Positions 2,336 through 48,981 of a stretch of DNA of 48,981 nt are shown one piece after another (position 1 is the stretch's first letter; each line of letters starts with the position of its first letter). A program made the translations under genes and the position numbers. The DNA comes from a virus: IMG/VR virus record IMGVR_UViG_3300050029_000513, positions 1 to 48,981 of that record; one strand, 5' to 3'. The notes beneath the pieces are model-generated. The model had not been told where the DNA came from. It worked only from the letters and a program-made list of their open reading frames with translations, and did not search any database.

Positions 2336-4119
2336 CAGAGCCCCTTCGGATACAGCAGGGCCGTCGCCTTGATCATGCCCGACTCCTTCTTCGTCAGGCC
2401 GAGCGAACTCAATACGCTGAGGTTGTTGCGGTAGCCGCTCGAGAGCGGAGACTGGCCGCTGTTCTTCGCCAAGTCGTCGCGCTCAACGCCATCGGCGTCA
2501 TCGAGGACCAGGCGGAGCATGAGCTTCTGAGGACCGGTCAGCTTTTTCAGCCAAGCCTCATGCAGCTCGTCGAGCGTGGCCGGCGCCGCGGACGGTGACG
2601 CGGCGACACGCCCGTCGTCAGTGAGTCTCACCGTCTCGCTGTCGACGCGTTCGATCAGTCCCTTGGCGCTGAGAACGCTGAGGTTATTCCGGAATCCGGA
2701 TGAGCGGGACGACTGATCACTGAAGACCGCGACGTGCGACTTCGCGAGTTGGTTGACGCCGATCGCTTCGAATGAGGCCAAGGCATCGAGCATCCGCTGC
2801 TGCGGATTGCTCAGGGTATCATTGATGATCGTGTAGTCCGAGCCCGGCAAGGTGGAACGCTGCGCCACCGGGGTGGTCCGCGGCCGTGACGCAGCAACCG
2901 GCGACCGCTCCGGCACCGATGCAATGGCGATCTCGCGATCGGACTGATACGACAGATCCACGTCTCGATCGAGCGAAAGGAAAGCGGCTCGACTATTGGC
3001 GACGAACGTGGCCAGCTTGTCGCTCGCGTGTCCGACCGAGTCGATTGACTTGGCCAACACATCGAGATCCTTGCCCACGATGCGTCGAAGATCCCTCGTC
3101 CAGGTTGCGCGAGCCTTCTCGACGGCCGCCACGATTTGGCGCTGAGCGTCGGCTGGATCGGCAACGTCGACACCCCGCTGAGCGCGCGAGAGATCACCCT
3201 TCAGCTGCTTCACCTGCTTTTGGAGATCGGCGACGGACTTCGCTTCTTCCTCGGCTTCCTTCGGCAGGTCGACGAGCTGCGACAGCATCGCCTTGACCTT
3301 GGCCGGCGCGGCGATCGGTGCGGCACTGACCTGCCCCGGTTCCGGATGGGATGTGATGACGTCGCCGGTCTTGATGATCGTGACTTCGCGGGAGATCGCC
3401 GGGCCGAACACGTAGAATTCGCCATCGCCGAGCTGCGCGAGCGTCCGGCGCTTGTCCTTGTCGAATCCGAGCTCCTTGGCCGCCCGGTCCATGTCGACGT
3501 CGAGGCCAGTGCGGCCGATCATCTTGTTGTTGAGCTCCGCGGCGGCGTCCTTGTTCAGCTTCGACAGGCGCTGCGTCGCGAGAATCGGGCAGAACCCGCG
3601 CTTTCGTGAGAGCGAGATAAAGTCGATCACGGCATTCGTCGAGACGGATTCGCCATGTCCCTTCTCAGGCGCGAAGGCGTGGGACTCGTCAATCACAACG
3701 ATGCACGGGCGCCACAACGTCTTGGGCAGCGCTGTCATCTCGGTCAGGAAGATCCGGACGAACTCGCGCCGCTCAGGGACCGACAGTTCGTAGATGTCGA
3801 GGATCGCCGACGCGCCGAGCTCCATGAGGCGACGGCAGAGAAGCTTCGCCGTCTTCGGGCTCGCGAGCACGTCGCCGCCAGTCTTCGCAGCCAGGACGTA
3901 TGGGAACTTCTCGCGAAGGGTCGGAAACTCGCCTTCCGGATCGATGACGATGTGCTGGACCTTCCCAAACGTTTCCTCCAGGAGCTGCCGCAGCGCGCGA
4001 GACTTGCCGCCGCCGCTGTTTGCCTGAATGAGCATGCGCGTCACCATCAGCCGATCGAGATCGACGAGAAGTCGATCCTTGCCGGCGGTGCCGCGGTATG
4101 TGAGAAGTGGAGTGGTCAA
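2335..4119 (-). CDS. HerA-like ATPase (DUF87-type) with duplicated C-terminal winged-helix
   Basis: 594 aa. HerA/FtsK-superfamily DNA-pumping ATPase: Walker A 'NSGGGKS' near 34-40, the HerA-type 'VIDPEGEF' near 58-65, Walker B 'IVVIDESHAF' near 140-149 and a sensor-like 'ATQR' near 181-184. A coiled coil follows at about 290-330. The end holds two related winged-helix repeats, each with 'SG[FY]RNNLSVLS..GL'. HerA usually feeds DNA to a NurA or Mre11-type nuclease; here an Mre11-like nuclease and RecT lie just upstream, so a role in end resection is inferred. The start is uncertain: the only reasonable one is TTG at 4119 with no clear Shine-Dalgarno, and the frame is closed 66 bases upstream. 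Confidence 0.82.
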   Translation of the reverse strand: MTTPLLTYRGTAGKDRLLVDLDRLMVTRMLIQANSGGGKSRALRQLLEETFGKVQHIVIDPEGEFPTLREKFPYVLAAKTGGDVLASPKTAKLLCRRLMELGASAILDIYELSVPERREFVRIFLTEMTALPKTLWRPCIVVIDESHAFAPEKGHGESVSTNAVIDFISLSRKRGFCPILATQRLSKLNKDAAAELNNKMIGRTGLDVDMDRAAKELGFDKDKRRTLAQLGDGEFYVFGPAISREVTIIKTGDVITSHPEPGQVSAAPIAAPAKVKAMLSQLVDLPKEAEEEAKSVADLQKQVKQLKGDLSRAQRGVDVADPADAQRQIVAAVEKARATWTRDLRRIVGKDLDVLAKSIDSVGHASDKLATFVANSRAAFLSLDRDVDLSYQSDREIAIASVPERSPVAASRPRTTPVAQRSTLPGSDYTIINDTLSNPQQRMLDALASFEAIGVNQLAKSHVAVFSDQSSRSSGFRNNLSVLSAKGLIERVDSETVRLTDDGRVAASPSAAPATLDELHEAWLKKLTGPQKLMLRLVLDDADGVERDDLAKNSGQSPLSSGYRNNLSVLSSLGLTKKESGMIKATALLYPKGL

Positions 4120-4237
4120 CGGAATTGAAGAAGAAGGGATCCCGCCCCGTCGTCAGAGACGAAACGCTGGTGCTTGCCGTCGATACCGGCAGCCGTGGAC
4201 CGGGGGCCCACGAGCCAGACGACGGGACGAGGACCCG
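4120..4237 (-). other. Gap inside the otherwise overlapping early operon
   Basis: These 118 bases separate recT and the HerA-like gene, whereas all other genes nearby overlap or abut. The stretch is GC-rich with several short inverted repeats, but no terminator with a U tract or clear promoter was seen. The downstream gene has no ATG near its expected start, so the gap may hold a translational control element or a mis-called start. Confidence 0.3.
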
Positions 4238-5278
4238 CTAGAACTGCATCTGAGCGTTGTCTTTCGGCGGCCAGATGAGGCCACCGCATGCCTCATCCTT
4301 GCACTTGAAGTCCGGCCGCGATCTCTGGCCGGCCGCGCGGCGTTTCACATTCTCTTCGCGGTTGTCGTACATGTCGGCACTCCCGCATTTCGGGCACTTC
4401 GCGATGACCGGCGCGGCCGGCGACGATGGCGCAGCCGTGCCGGTATCGGCAGCGGATGCGGGGGCCCCCACTCCTGCCCCGGGCTCTTCGCCCCCTGTCG
4501 TCGGCTCTGCGTCTTCGATCACCGCATCGGTGACCACTTCCTCATCGAACTGCGCGACAACCTTTGCCATGCGCGGGCTCGTCGGCAGCTGCTTCGCGAT
4601 CTTGTGAACCGGTGTCTTTTCTACGTACCACGGGATCTCTTCAATCGGAATCAGCCGCTTGATGTTGCCTTCGCGATCCTTCTCTGCCCACCACGATTGA
4701 GACTTGCTCTTCCGGATGGCGTCGATCTCTTCGATGGTCAACACGACGACCTTCGGAGGAATCCCAGCGGCGATGTGTGCGACGGAATAGCCGTGCGTGA
4801 TCTTCCTGCCGGTTTTTGACTTTGACGACGGCCGGTGATTGATGAATGCATTCGAGCCGAGCTGGTACTCGAAGTGATCACCGTCGTAGACCGCCGACGC
4901 GTCGATCGATCGCGCGCCGCCGGCGCGAACGATCAGCTCGATATCGCCTTGATAACTGCGAACCGCGGTCGCCGTCCCTTTGAACGGAACCATGAACGCC
5001 TTTTCGCCGATCGTCAGTCCCCACTCGAGGCACCGGACGGCCGACTGCACCAGGCTCGCCGGCGAGCATTTCGCGAGCGCCGGCGTCTTCTGCATGGCGA
5101 AATAGAGTTCTGTGAGCAGGTGCTCGAAGGTGATCCCCAACGGTGCCAGCTTCGGCATCAGGAGCGCCTTCGCGTTAGCCGTCGTGAACGCAGCAAGCTC
5201 CGGCTTCTTGTAGAGCGTTAGCGCGCCGCCGGGTTCCGGCGTTGATGCGACCGCGGTTGGGCGTTGTGCTGTTGCCAT
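4238..5278 (-). CDS. recT: RecT-family ssDNA annealing protein with C-terminal zinc ribbon
   Basis: 346 aa. The RecT core spans about residues 25-245 ('AKALLMPKLAPLG', 'SAVRCLEWGLTIGEKAFMVPFKG', 'YQGDIELIVRAGGARSIDASAVYDGD', 'PWYVEKTPVHKIAKQLPTSP'). It would bind ssDNA and anneal complementary strands in phage recombination. After a low-complexity Ala/Pro/Glu linker (about 250-290) comes a four-cysteine zinc-ribbon pattern, CPKC near 295-298 and C326/C331. The start ATG at 5278 has a GGAGG site 8 bases upstream, better than the in-frame TTG at 5293. The partner nuclease is probably the Mre11-like protein encoded upstream rather than RecE. Confidence 0.9.
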   Translation of the reverse strand: MATAQRPTAVASTPEPGGALTLYKKPELAAFTTANAKALLMPKLAPLGITFEHLLTELYFAMQKTPALAKCSPASLVQSAVRCLEWGLTIGEKAFMVPFKGTATAVRSYQGDIELIVRAGGARSIDASAVYDGDHFEYQLGSNAFINHRPSSKSKTGRKITHGYSVAHIAAGIPPKVVVLTIEEIDAIRKSKSQSWWAEKDREGNIKRLIPIEEIPWYVEKTPVHKIAKQLPTSPRMAKVVAQFDEEVVTDAVIEDAEPTTGGEEPGAGVGAPASAADTGTAAPSSPAAPVIAKCPKCGSADMYDNREENVKRRAAGQRSRPDFKCKDEACGGLIWPPKDNAQMQF

Positions 5279-43302: not shown

Positions 43303-43865
43303 CAGACGGCCTCCGGCGTCGCCGCGACGACCGGGTCGACGCGATAGACAGCCTTGATCGAGTGCACGCTCGGATATCGGTGCAATCCCTGAATGACGCC
43401 CCACCACGGATCGAGGACGCGTCCGTCGCGAATCATCACGACATAGTGATGGCCGGCGTCAGACAGACTTCGGACGTGGCACAGGTGAACGTCAGCCCAT
43501 GGCGCACAGGGCCACGGATCGCGCTGCATCGCCAGGCGAGCTTCGTTCAGATATCGCGTCTGCCAGGCGAACCCCAATGCGTCGAGCAGGTTATCGATCT
43601 GCTCGACGTCGACGCCGAAACGCTCGTCGCTCAGATCCTTCGCCATGGACAGCAGTCGACGCACATCGCGGTAACTCTGCCGGGTCGCCATGGCCACGGC
43701 AGCAATTCCGCACCCGCTTTCCTCTTCCTGGTAGACGAAGCCGATCGGGAGATCGGTGATCTGACAGGCGCAGTTCATCCCATGCTTTTCGCCGGTACCA
43801 GCGTGACGCACGACCCGCCTTCCCGTGCCGTTGCACCAGGTGCAGGCCTTCGCCTCGTCGCTCAT
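43302..43865 (-). CDS. Papain-like (C39-type) cysteine peptidase with N-terminal zinc knuckle
   Basis: 187 aa from ATG 43865 (ATGA). An N-terminal 'CTWCNGTGRRV...GMNCAC' resembles a DnaJ-type CxxCxGxG knuckle. The peptidase part has Cys52 in 'ESGCGIAAVAMATRQSYRDVRRLL', His139/140 in 'SDAGHHYVVMIRDGRV' and Asp152 in 'LDPWWG', the order and spacing of C39-like peptidases. It is located directly before terS. Possible roles are processing of a virion or host protein; it has no transporter and no signal peptide. Confidence 0.72.
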   Translation of the reverse strand: MSDEAKACTWCNGTGRRVVRHAGTGEKHGMNCACQITDLPIGFVYQEEESGCGIAAVAMATRQSYRDVRRLLSMAKDLSDERFGVDVEQIDNLLDALGFAWQTRYLNEARLAMQRDPWPCAPWADVHLCHVRSLSDAGHHYVVMIRDGRVLDPWWGVIQGLHRYPSVHSIKAVYRVDPVVAATPEAV

Positions 43866-44536
43866 GCCGCCCTCGCGATGCACGTGCCGCAGACGCCAGC
43901 GATCTTGGCGCCGTCGATCAGCGGCTTGGTGGCCGCCGCGGCGATCATCTCTTCGACGCCAGCAGCTCGAGCTCCGTATCGTCGCACGATCGCGGTGAAC
44001 TCTTCGACATCGTGGCCCCGGATGCCGAAGATCGGCCGGCCGGTCGATTGGCTGAACCGCGGGACGCCGTACGCATTCCGGGCCTGAGCGCAGTGCAGCA
44101 TCTCGTGCTCGACCAGCGCGCAAAAGCTCGCATCCTCAGCCTCAGCGGCGTATGGCGCGAACAGCGTGATGACGAAGTCGGGGACGCTGCCGAACCATTC
44201 GCGGAGCTGCAGATCGTGCCGAGCCTTCGCCCACTTGCCCCCGCGGGCCATCGGCATCTCGGCCTGGCCGACGATGCGGCGCATGTTCCGGGCGTTGCCG
44301 ACGTTGGTCCAGAGCACGCCGACGTGCGCCTGCCGGAGGTGGATGTGCTCGGCGTTGAACAGCGCCGACTTATCGTCGAGGAAGGTCGACTGGACCCACG
44401 GCCACAGATCCGTCGCCGGCTCGAACGCCTCAGTGAACTCGGCCAGCGCCGGCTCGCGAAGCTCCACGCCTGGCATAGGGCGTGTCGGCACGGGCGCGAT
44501 CGATTCGGCGTACCGGGAAACGAGCTTCGGCTTCAT
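43862..44536 (-). CDS. Phage putative metallopeptidase (Phage_metallopep-like)
   Basis: 224 aa. 'VPDFVITLFAPYAAEAEDASFCALVEHEMLHCAQARNAYGVPRFSQSTGRPIFGIRGHDVEEFTAIVRRYG' carries HEMLH plus a downstream His-Asp-Val-Glu-Glu, diagnostic of the phage metallopeptidase family. The end has 'CGTCIARAA'. It is the first gene after element copy 3, about 16 bases from the terminator U tract, with a weak AGG site. Confidence 0.82.
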   Translation of the reverse strand: MKPKLVSRYAESIAPVPTRPMPGVELREPALAEFTEAFEPATDLWPWVQSTFLDDKSALFNAEHIHLRQAHVGVLWTNVGNARNMRRIVGQAEMPMARGGKWAKARHDLQLREWFGSVPDFVITLFAPYAAEAEDASFCALVEHEMLHCAQARNAYGVPRFSQSTGRPIFGIRGHDVEEFTAIVRRYGARAAGVEEMIAAAATKPLIDGAKIAGVCGTCIARAA

Positions 44537-46528: not shown

Positions 46529-47232
46529 TGAAGGTGGATTCCCCCCGGTGACTTCTTCGTCGGCAGCACGCCGCGTAGCCGCTCGATCGCCGACCTGATC
46601 CTGAGCGAACTCGCATTCGGCGAACCGACCAACGACGTCAGCGCGTCTCGGATCGCGTTGTACAGGGCCATGTTGTTCTCGACCTGGGTGTGCAGACGTC
46701 TGGACAGTCGATCGACGAACAGGTTGGTCCGGTGCACGAGGGTTAGGGTGTTCTCGAGGCGTTCGCGCGGGACGCCGAACCGATCGAGGATCGCGTGCGT
46801 TCGGTGCAACTGCTCACGCAATCCATCGACGTAGGCCGTGATCTCGTCGGCGTTATCAATGGTCATCTTGCCGAGCAACGCGTCGAGCTGGGGATCTCGG
46901 CCGATAGCGGCTGCCGCGTCGTTCTCGTTCGCCCAGCCGATGCCTACGAGCTCGTCGAAGTGGTCGTCTGGATGGCCGGTTGATCGAGCGCAGGTGACCT
47001 GACCGCCGTTCGGCGTCTCGCGGTGTGCGGCGCAGGGCTCGGCCAGCAGCTCGGCGATCGTAGCGTCGATGCCAGCCTTCTCCTCCTCGAGCTTGGCCAA
47101 TGTGGTGTCGTCCGCTGTTTCGGCCTCGGCGACGATGGCGTGAATGCGCGCGGCCAGGGCCTTGAGGCGGAGGGACTTTTGCTCGTAGGCGGCGCTGGGG
47201 TCGGCGGCCGCCGCGGTTGTCGGTTCGGTCAT
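46525..47232 (-). CDS. Coiled-coil protein with Cys/His patch, unknown
   Basis: 235 aa from ATG 47232 (GAAGGA upstream, ATGA overlap). N-terminal coiled coil ('LRLKALAARIHAIVAEAETADDTTLAKLEEEKAGIDATIAELL'), a 'CAAHRETPNGGQVTCARSTGHPDDHFD' patch that may bind zinc, and a long helical C-terminus. It could be a structural or nucleic-acid-binding accessory protein; the function is unknown. Confidence 0.55.
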   Translation of the reverse strand: MTEPTTAAAADPSAAYEQKSLRLKALAARIHAIVAEAETADDTTLAKLEEEKAGIDATIAELLAEPCAAHRETPNGGQVTCARSTGHPDDHFDELVGIGWANENDAAAAIGRDPQLDALLGKMTIDNADEITAYVDGLREQLHRTHAILDRFGVPRERLENTLTLVHRTNLFVDRLSRRLHTQVENNMALYNAIRDALTSLVGSPNASSLRIRSAIERLRGVLPTKKSPGGIHLQ

Positions 47233-47609
47233 GCTGCTTCCTTCGTGCACTCGGCACGCTCGATGTCAGTGATGGGGTTCTTGAATCCGCAGTGAATGCA
47301 GGCATCGCCGCGGCCGTAGTCTGGATACTCGGCGCACATCATCGGTCGGCGCTCATAAATGGTGCATCGCCCGCTCGACCGGTCGAGGTGGATGCACGTG
47401 TATTCCTGATATTCGTCCGGCTCGTTCAGCGGGATCAACATCTCGCCGATCGTCACCGTGTCCCAATCGGCGCGGCTGTCCTCGCCGGCCGTGATGCGAG
47501 CAGTCGACCATTCGTACATCTCGCCCATGCGCGCGGGTGTTGCGCTGAGAGGGAAGCGCTCGCAGCACTTCCCTCCACACGGATTCGAGGAAATCCCTCC
47601 AAGGCTCAC
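47229..47609 (-). CDS. YkgJ-type CxxxCC cluster protein
   Basis: 126 aa, GTG start at a GTGA overlap. 'NPCGGKCCERF...YTCIHLDRSSGRCTIYERRPMMCAEYPDYGRGDACIHCG' is the CxxxCC (YkgJ) family pattern, thought to hold zinc or an iron-sulfur cluster. Its role in phages is unknown; RNA or protein modification is sometimes proposed. Confidence 0.78.
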   Translation of the reverse strand: MSLGGISSNPCGGKCCERFPLSATPARMGEMYEWSTARITAGEDSRADWDTVTIGEMLIPLNEPDEYQEYTCIHLDRSSGRCTIYERRPMMCAEYPDYGRGDACIHCGFKNPITDIERAECTKEAA

Positions 47610-48001
47610 CGCCAGCCTTCCGGCAGCTCGCAGTTCGCTGGCGCGTCCGCGAACATCGGCGCAATGTCGACGTCAGTGAATCCCGCCAGGCCGCACCCAA
47701 CCCGAGTGACAGCGAATGTCAGCTCAGGATGTGCAATCGCGATCGCCAGGAATCGCGCGACATGGCCGGCCACCTGATCGATCGACAGCGACTCGATGTG
47801 GTCATCCTTGGTCGGAATGCCGTACGACCGGCCCATGAGGCCTTCGCCCGTTCCCCACTTCGCGCCGTACTCCTTCCACGCCACCCGCGCAGCGCCACCG
47901 CCATGGACGCCAGCGCGGTTGGACCCGAAGACGAAGACCACCTTCGGGTCCTGCATCAGGACGGTGACGCGCGCGATCTCTCGCTGATCGAGCGCGTTCA
48001 C
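47606..48001 (-). CDS. Macro-domain-like protein
   Basis: 131 aa. 'VVFVFGSNRAGVHGGGAARVAWKEYGAKWGTGEGLMGRSYGIPTKDD...FLAIAIAHPELTFAVTRVGCGLAGFTDVDIAPMFADA' is the phage/bacterial macro-like pattern (FGSN.aG.HG.GAA...YGA..G.GeGl.G.sYaiPTkd ... vT.iGcGlAG). It is probably an ADP-ribose or NAD-metabolite binder or hydrolase; an anti-defence role is possible. ATGA overlap with the repeat protein upstream. Confidence 0.8.
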   Translation of the reverse strand: MNALDQREIARVTVLMQDPKVVFVFGSNRAGVHGGGAARVAWKEYGAKWGTGEGLMGRSYGIPTKDDHIESLSIDQVAGHVARFLAIAIAHPELTFAVTRVGCGLAGFTDVDIAPMFADAPANCELPEGWR

Positions 48002-48981
48002 TTCTTGCCTCCGCGCTTGGCAAGCGCCTTTGCCTTTCGCTTTGGCGCGCTCGACTTCTTTGCCTTTGGGGCTGGCTTAGCCGGTTCGGCAGCCGTCCGC
48101 GGCAGCGCCGCGAGAACCATCTCCGTCGTCGGTGCGATCACGCCGGCGACTGGCTCACCGTTGCGATCAACCTCGAAACACGGACCGCACCGCGGCGCCT
48201 TGACCTTCTCCAGATACTGGCCGTTCGGGTGGACTACGATCTCGTCGACGCGGATCGGGCAGCCGGCGAACCGAGTCCCCGCCGTGTGGAAGGCCAGCGC
48301 CATCACTGGGCACGGAGAGAAGTGCAGGCCGCCTCCGCATTCGATCTCCGGATTCCAGTCCGGCGCTTTGGGACTGACGCCGGGCGCGTACCCCATGCCG
48401 TGCGGTGATGTGAAGTCCTCATTCAGCGCCTTGTACAGGACGACCACGCCATCGACGATGTCCAGTCCGTAGTACTCGCACCACTTCTCTGCCGTCGAGA
48501 TATCGACGGTCGTCTGCCGTCCACCGTCAGCCTTGCCGCCGCCGCGGAGCAGAACTGCGACGTTCGCGGTTGCCTTGGCACGCACGCCAGCGGACGCGAT
48601 TTGGATCTGGGCGTACGCCCAAGCCTCGACGTGCGACGATCCCCGAGCCACGACGTGCGACGATCCCCAAGCCACGACGTGCGACGATCCCCGAGCCACG
48701 ACGTGCGACGATTCCCGAGCCTCGACGTGCGACGATCCCCGAGCCACGACGTGCGACGATCCCCAAGCCACGACGTGCGACGATTCCCAAGCCTCGACGT
48801 GCGACGATTCCCGAGCCACGACGTGCGACGATTCCCAAGCCTCGACGTGCGACGATTCCCGAGCCACGACGTGCGACGATTCCCAAGCCACGACGTGCGA
48901 CGATTCCCTAGCCTCGACGTGCGACGATCCCCGAGCCACGACGTGCGACGATTCCCGAGCCACGACGTGCGACGATTCCCA
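47998..48981 (-). CDS. DUF7666-like protein with N-terminal 8-residue repeats (5' end outside window)
   Basis: At least 328 codons; the true start lies beyond the window edge. The visible N-terminal part is about 15 copies of an octapeptide [RW][EG]SSHV[VE]A, then 'AYAQIQIASAGVRAKATANVAVL', and a C-terminal domain 'VVLYKALNEDFTSPHGMGYAPGVSPKAPDWNPEIECGGGLHFSPCPVMALAFH' that fits DUF7666, ending in a basic Lys/Ala tail. Such repeats are expected to form a beta-solenoid. The function is unknown; it is linked to a macro-domain gene. Confidence 0.7.
   Translation of the reverse strand, partial: WESSHVVARESSHVVARGSSHVEARESSHVVAWESSHVVARESSHVEAWESSHVVARESSHVEAWESSHVVAWGSSHVVARGSSHVEARESSHVVARGSSHVVAWGSSHVVARGSSHVEAWAYAQIQIASAGVRAKATANVAVLLRGGGKADGGRQTTVDISTAEKWCEYYGLDIVDGVVVLYKALNEDFTSPHGMGYAPGVSPKAPDWNPEIECGGGLHFSPCPVMALAFHTAGTRFAGCPIRVDEIVVHPNGQYLEKVKAPRCGPCFEVDRNGEPVAGVIAPTTEMVLAALPRTAAEPAKPAPKAKKSSAPKRKAKALAKRGGKK
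48627..48981. repeat. 24-bp tandem repeat array (about 15 units, continues past window)
   Basis: Units start at 48627 and recur every 24 bp with core CGACGTGCGACGAT. Variation is confined to a few positions per unit; all but one of the differences change an amino acid (R/W, G/E, V/E), while the SSHV codons are invariant. Repeats are in frame with the encoded octapeptide and continuous, with no spacers. Confidence 0.95.

Follow-up and report, generated by a model that had tools for sequence, protein, structure and literature searches.

A variable octapeptide-repeat gene with a DUF7666-like domain and its recurrent macrodomain neighbor in unrelated phages

Why would a phage carry a gene built on a 24-bp tandem repeat that varies almost only in bases that change the encoded residue, directly beside a macrodomain gene? 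The question arises at the right end of IMG/VR record IMGVR_UViG_3300050029_000513, a linear sequence of 48,981 bases that was analyzed over its whole length (hereafter, the window). The same record carries tailed-phage terminase, portal, tape-measure, and tail genes (PHROG matches), and the best named relatives of its terminase, about 50% identical, belong to Nitratiruptor and Bdellovibrio phages, with none closer. The repeat gene is a minus-strand open frame at the right end that runs off the contig, and the region is laid out as follows.

48622..48981, minus strand: 24-bp array of 15 full units, (W/R)(E/G)SSHV(V/E)A, read codon by codon and abutting the contig end
48502..48615, minus strand: degenerate strands predicted as the C-terminal end of the solenoid (residues 123-160; AlphaFold2 secondary structure)
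48148..48498, minus strand: DUF7666-like or RIIB-type domain, about residues 162-278 (Pfam E 1.2e-4, below gathering; PHROG 15773, E 5.5e-55; alignments; fold matches)
47998..48147, minus strand: Lys/Ala/Pro-rich C-terminal tail and stop codon of the repeat gene (low confidence, pLDDT 53-58 at the end)
47606..48001, minus strand: A1S_2505-family macrodomain gene with a GTG start (NCBIfam match and model)
47229-47609: CxxCxxCC zinc- or iron-chelating protein, the next gene downstream of the macro gene (Pfam PF03692, E 3e-11)
43862-44536: open reading frame between the macro region and the terminase, matching phrog_513 (annotated transposase; E 1.2e-67)

A first-pass annotation had described about 15 in-frame 24-bp units that differ almost only by replacement changes at three positions, with SSHV fixed, and reading the array codon by codon confirmed that description. 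Tandem Repeats Finder reports a period of 24, 15.1 copies, and 92% matches over 48618-48980. The codons TCG TCG CAC GTC (SSHV) and GCT (Ala) are unchanged in all 15 units, and variation is confined to codon 1 (TGG/CGG, with AGG once), codon 2 (GAA/GGA), and codon 7 (GTG/GAG). The bases exchanged at these fixed sites are G/A, T/A, and T/C, and CGG/AGG (Arg) is the sole synonymous difference. What the annotation overlooked is that the gene is cut: because the array meets the contig end, the 5′ part (start, cap, and possibly further units) is missing, and the count of 15 does not measure the full copy number. Contigs of several relatives (L002, L036, L038, L045, L047, L048, L057, and L061) also break within the array, so in the window, too, assembly probably broke off at the repeat. 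A search for a reverse transcriptase (RVT_1) of a diversity-generating retroelement gave no match in the window record, which is possibly a fragment. A separate PADLOC search gave no matches. An open antisense frame crosses the array, as is to be expected of a 24-bp repeat.

The units were also said to encode an octapeptide solenoid, and structure prediction agrees. With a 24-row alignment, AlphaFold2 modeled residues 1-160 as a β-solenoid with one four-residue strand per unit and pLDDT mostly near 90, and residues 161-280 as a compact domain with block pLDDT of 84-97. The autotransporter TibA comes closest in structure to the solenoid (Z 15.4, 159 residues within a 190-residue stretch). A TibA coil comprises about 19 residues, which together with the match suggests about 16 residues, or two 8-residue units, per turn. 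Judging from strand alternation in the model, V and A would point inside, with H, V/E, and W/R outside.

Intact homologues have a cap-like stretch (VxTQxELDxAL...), then 3-67 units of 8 or 10 residues, then a DUF7666-like domain, and their unit cores differ (SSHV, SAHV, SATV, SSQPHV, SSAPSI, SSSPTI, and others). Che8 gp59, Redi gp44, Squirty gp51, and Gordonia phage Spooky gp76 likewise combine an N-terminal cap-like stretch, an octapeptide array, and a DUF7666-type C-terminus, but they are followed by DUF732 or another gene rather than a macro gene, and the mycobacteriophage units, mostly GSA(H/R)V(E/V)A(W/x), are unlike those of the window. Homologues are broken or shortened in mycobacteriophages Nitzel (L034), EleanorGeorge, and Soul22 (L032, L033), which indicates that the gene is dispensable in those phages. 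Copy-number change, a point on which the annotation had proposed to compare isolates, is seen between near-identical phages: the Charlievirus relatives Raymond7, Redi, and L051 hold 3, 4, and 7 units within flanks that are 98.4-99.7% identical, and Bordetella relatives, described below, also differ. By far the longest array (L044:2778-5372) consists of about 67 ten-residue units, SSSP(T/R)I(V/E)S(W/R)(G/E), in which longer blocks are seemingly repeated. Arrays often lie no more than a few kb from phage recombination genes (exonuclease, RecE/RecT, ssDNA annealing proteins), for instance at L017:143-1996, L020:5387-7307, L021:5528-7366, and L091:4378-6355. Nearby recombination genes could drive unit shuffling.

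Read as a signal of selection, the three replacement sites of a single array prove nothing, because about 73% of sites are replacement sites. The comparison of many arrays is what supports the annotated expansion with selection on exposed residues. Across 43 arrays, variable codon columns, counted if the minor form occurs at least twice and set against a silent-site fraction of 0.271, include 128 replacement and 7 silent columns (P 4.6e-11). With related arrays removed (n = 33), the counts are 97 and 7 (P 1.9e-7), both P values being rough, as the arrays retained after de-duplication still share some ancestry. End units with at least two residues unique in the array were trimmed. The 43-array set left out L002, L045, L047, L049, L053, L055, L060, L066, and L083 as too short or near-copies and did not include L024, L033, L091, L108, and L109; alignment A3 left out L044, L049, L051, L053, L056, L059, and L060. 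The codon pairs compared are one base apart in 128 cases and more in 26.

The columns that vary lie at outward or turn positions. In the 42 registered arrays they occur at −1 (11), +1 (40), +3 (34), +4 (38), and elsewhere (4), with none at core positions 0 and +2, a zero that is partly built in, as registration required invariance there (L080 was not registrable). Silent sites are near uniform within arrays, and the codons used for one residue differ between arrays, so that a shared DNA motif does not explain the silent uniformity. Homogenization wipes out silent differences while exposed replacements persist, and the 43 arrays make a clear case of this process. Crossing-over within units should bring together all four combinations of two sites, and 101 of the 178 site pairs compared inside units do show all four. 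The tetra- or octapeptide repeats of Tweety gp54 and Che8 gp57, a separate gene (Che8 gp57, not gp59) with another repeat, show a comparable pattern, in which third codon positions do not change and the variation replaces residues. In the relevant passage of the Tweety paper, its authors inferred selection for variation in those repeats (PMC2884959).

These patterns bear on two alternatives. If the array were simply a mutable repeat undergoing neutral slippage in a dispensable gene, its variation would be meaningless, and rapid copy-number change and the sometimes broken homologues would both fit. The near-uniform silent sites beside persisting replacements (128:7) and the constant core residues speak against such slippage, which we disfavor as very improbable. 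Alternatively, the solenoid could be a passive rod or spacer in which a mixed charged and uncharged surface prevents like-charge ladders and aggregation, so that diversity serves folding. The same few dimorphism classes recur in many phages (E/V in 25 of the 43 arrays, G/D in 24, W/R in 18, and G/E in 12), which looks like a physical requirement, and anywhere from 3 to 67 units are tolerated. However, under an anti-ladder rule stacked coils should alternate strongly, and no clear ordering of unit types emerged when adjacent-unit identity was compared with shuffled order (lag-1 z −1.66, lag-2 z −0.1). With identity this close to random, the arrays show no ordered code, and we consider the passive rod unlikely, if still worth bearing in mind.

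A related array has been on record in Bordetella phages; the annotation mentioned neither this link nor the one to T4 RIIB described below. A passage of the Tweety paper, citing Liu 2002 and 2004, describes a 24-bp element of BMP-1 that is repeated 9-20 times, depending on the isolate, in bbp36 and has no known role (PMC2884959). We found that Bbp36 passes the DUF7666 gathering score (41.7 vs 27 bits, residues 21-116) and consists of DUF7666 followed by (YR/ES/NY)GTATAG units, with the macro gene bbp37 overlapping the bbp36 stop. BPP-1 has 14 GTATAG units, BMP-1 21, BIP-1 20, and vB_BbrP_003 7, in flanks 98.1-99.8% identical to BPP-1 (main matches). This region, VR2, of BPP-1, BMP-1, and BIP-1 resembles the window locus in its 24-bp octapeptide array, its DUF7666 domain, and a macro gene overlapping by 4 bases. 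It differs in its order, with DUF7666 first and the repeats last, and in its unit, which varies by two-codon cassettes, whereas the window array has three single-base sites. VR2 copy number varies between isolates, while for the window type such variation is known from relatives, the window being one cut contig. Given its order, array then DUF7666-like domain, the window gene is a relative of bbp36 and a different gene. The window array thus represents a genuine class of repeat found in other phages as well, and it is one version of a type already on record but still without an explanation. The Bbp36 relatives of Burkholderia phage Mica and Pseudomonas phage D14O have no adjoining macro gene. 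That of Mica is annotated as ice nucleation by its submitters; the Pfam ice-nucleation repeat is absent from the matches of the window repeat protein at E ≤ 1.

Might the repeats instead vary for host range, as part of a virion or receptor-binding protein? Tailspikes are among the fold neighbors of the solenoid, and VR1 of BPP-1-type Bordetella phages is a tropism region, which we counted in favor of a receptor-binding role. Relatives of the repeat gene nevertheless lie among early, regulatory, and recombination genes (excise, repressor, WhiB, RecE/RecT), not tail genes. In its passage on VR2, the Tweety paper presents this region as seemingly unlinked to tropism and bbp36 as not essential (PMC2884959); among the matches listed by our literature search on bbp36 and VR2, bbp36 appears in that paper only. 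Of the readings weighed here, a virion role strikes us as the least credible.

The remainder of the protein points elsewhere. Its best Pfam match is DUF7666 (PF24703), at 22.9-23.9 bits against a gathering score of 27. The fusion to DUF7666 proposed in the annotation stands as to best match and shared motifs, and since the score (22.9 vs 27 bits) is below gathering, we term the domain DUF7666-like. All 10 members of a smaller family alignment (A1) match the DUF7666 model at E ≤ 5, the best at 6e-13. The window domain contains the motifs YKA, ECGGGLHF, K-x-K, and EVD, and K, A, Y, C, GLH, K, and EV are invariant in 25 aligned sequences including the window (A4 alignment). The A4 profile, run against 276 ORFs, matches T4 RIIB over residues 203-305 at 31 bits (E 3e-9), and shuffling T4 RIIB and the Bbp36 N-terminal part 1,000 times each never gave more than 9.5 bits. 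Comparison of T4 RIIB with the DUF7666-like family by hhalign gives 90.5%, and fold matches to RIIB proteins of T4-like phages begin at E 3e-5 among BFVD predicted viral structures, with rmsd 2.7-3.0 over about 115 columns in several rows. N4 RIIB matches the A4 profile weakly (4.5 bits) and has a DCSHGLH motif. By profile (T4), fold, and a CSxGLH motif, the C-terminal domains of T4 and N4 RIIB appear to belong to one family with the window domain, but their N-terminal parts are HTH or other regions without a repeat array. On sequence grounds, the window protein bears a RIIB-type domain but is not RIIB, its N-terminal part being the repeat array.

One paper describes RIIA/RIIB as countering RexAB and, in the passage concerned, calls the specificity of that interaction unclear (PMC11879866), and a passage of a jumbo-phage survey terms T4 rIIA-centered systems poorly understood counter-defense (PMC7824862). 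A term search for rIIB in a survey of viral NAD/ADP-ribose systems gave no match (PMC9503650), and our literature search found no paper naming DUF7666. Among 84,980 bacterial and archaeal genomes, two narrow peptide patterns for DUF7666 relatives gave 37 matches with none confirmed, which is only weak evidence that such relatives are absent there, and no relatives were found on plasmids.

The annotation also coupled the repeat gene to a macro-domain gene, and this coupling proved real and recurrent. A macro gene abuts the DUF7666 gene in 5 of 57 loci: downstream in the window, L040, L017, and BPP-1, and upstream in L044. The paired genes overlap by 4 bases in the window (GTG start of the macro gene over the TGA stop of the repeat gene), L040, and BPP-1, by 11 as called in L017, and by 1 in L044. 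The five linked macro proteins are 38-59% identical pairwise. In a tree of 50 domains, the linked loci sit at five separate places, implying five changes, of which well supported branches require three or more (bootstrap not settled). This tree took 50 of the 57 loci, leaving out L024, L033, L049, L051, L053, L055, and L060; the 57-locus list was de-duplicated by contig, and near-identical mycobacteriophages remain in it. Entries L068, L070, L075, L077, L079, and L084 are repeat fetches of other loci. The macro family occurs in about 0.7% of phage records, which places five adjacencies far from chance, although no formal probability attaches to this. Among divergent loci, the macro family is the sole recurring downstream family, save for one pair of near-identical phages; a single downstream family, DUF732 by Pfam in Che8, is common to 13 of the 57 loci, and mycobacteriophages have a DUF732-type neighbor instead. 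The link between repeat protein and macro gene thus recurs across unrelated phages, and this recurrence hints at a role for these unexplained genes. The association is loose in both directions: 52 of the 57 DUF7666 loci have no adjoining macro gene, and an adjoining DUF7666 gene is missing from all 14 of the macro loci that were found independently. In two related phages of those 14 (L003:630-2141, L006:618-2141), a RIIB-like gene precedes the A1S_2505 macro gene at a distance of about 1.8 kb. Macro loci L095-L107 duplicate thirteen of L003-L016 and were not used.

The partner itself is assigned to the A1S_2505 family (NF049995) at 150.4 bits against a cut-off of 45, over 109 of 109 positions, with no Pfam match at E ≤ 1. 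Its model (pLDDT 91) adopts a macrodomain fold resembling TARG1 (Z 11.8, rmsd 2.5 over 116) and DarG (Z 11.0). This likeness of predicted fold comes with only 12-14% identity, and the lysine of the PTK motif, which is catalytic in TARG1-type macrodomains, is not kept across the linked homologues: the motif is present in the window and L044 proteins and absent in L040, L017, and Bbp37 (three of the five). Relatives of the macro protein were found in 363 of 50,697 phage records, some annotated as macro or ADP-ribosylglycohydrolase, and phage N4 has a homologue at 4118-4525, over gp14. A literature search found no paper combining four of the five terms macro domain, phage, ADP-ribose, A1S_2505, and phage N4.

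Such a partner raises the prospect that DUF7666/RIIB is itself ADP-ribosyltransferase-like, with the macro protein reversing or buffering its product, as in transferase-macrodomain pairs like DarTG. In the top 50 rows of the structural search, the proteins aligned to the DUF7666 domain and not to the solenoid were KptA/Tpt1 (Z 6.0-6.6, about 83 residues) and, at Z 5.8, the Rhs toxin TreTu; we take all of these to be ADP-ribosyltransferase folds. PARP10 and C3 appear as weak Foldseek rows, invariant K, H, and E lie near three transferase motif positions in the 25 sequences when mapped by eye, and the pairing with a macro gene recurs. By the tool's own warning, however, Z below 8 may reflect a common arrangement, and sequence gives no support, with a profile-profile probability of 0.2% with E. 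coli KptA and chance-level matches only, no transferase among them, in PDB sequence searches with A1 and A4. The candidate catalytic E is absent, by eye, from N4 RIIB and Bbp36, and most DUF7666 loci lack the macro gene. A possible transferase-like fold may serve as a lead, from weak evidence, and as an explanation of the locus we think it distinctly unlikely. CNFy, which occupies the top Foldseek rows, was considered as a transferase-like domain and dropped, as the literature search did not support a decision. Longer odds still apply to the broader idea that the rIIB C-terminal domain is an ADP-ribosyltransferase-like family and that phages repeatedly built a transferase-macrodomain pair with a hypervariable β-solenoid targeting arm, VR2 being one case. 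If true, the rII module would act through NAD/ADP-ribose chemistry.

We favor, at a probability of roughly 40%, a reading of the repeat protein as an accessory protein for counter-defense or host takeover, with an ADP-ribose-processing partner and with a solenoid surface whose diversity recombination and selection maintain. The locus would be a two-gene phage accessory module. Its first gene would encode a β-solenoid of 8-residue units, in which the core stays constant and the outward residues vary, followed by a DUF7666-like domain of the type seen in T4 RIIB. The solenoid would most likely be a recognition or scaffold surface whose length and surface residues change as units recombine with one another, with selection maintaining the diversity, and the DUF7666-like domain would be the effector. 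The macrodomain encoded by the second gene would bind or remove ADP-ribose in a shared pathway, early in infection, during counter-defense or host takeover. Computation directly shows the array with its variation, the domain relationships, the changes of copy number among relatives, and the recurring pairing of genes. Both folds are predicted, and what we infer is timing, target, enzymatic roles, and the NAD/ADP-ribose biology and counter-defense that the annotation had suggested. The link between VR2, RIIB, and the macrodomain yields a concrete biochemical guess, ADP-ribose, along with small proteins on which to try it. It also makes two long-standing questions testable at once, namely the reason for VR2 variation in Bordetella phages and the role of the RIIB C-terminal domain.

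Two further kinds of array were noted. Octapeptide arrays in which the DUF7666 motif was not seen occur in L030 and L031, a Porphyromonas phage and a 5.5-kb microvirus. At L059:4485-5381, the array is broken by SPSSVQHRT repeats that resemble its own repeat read in another frame.
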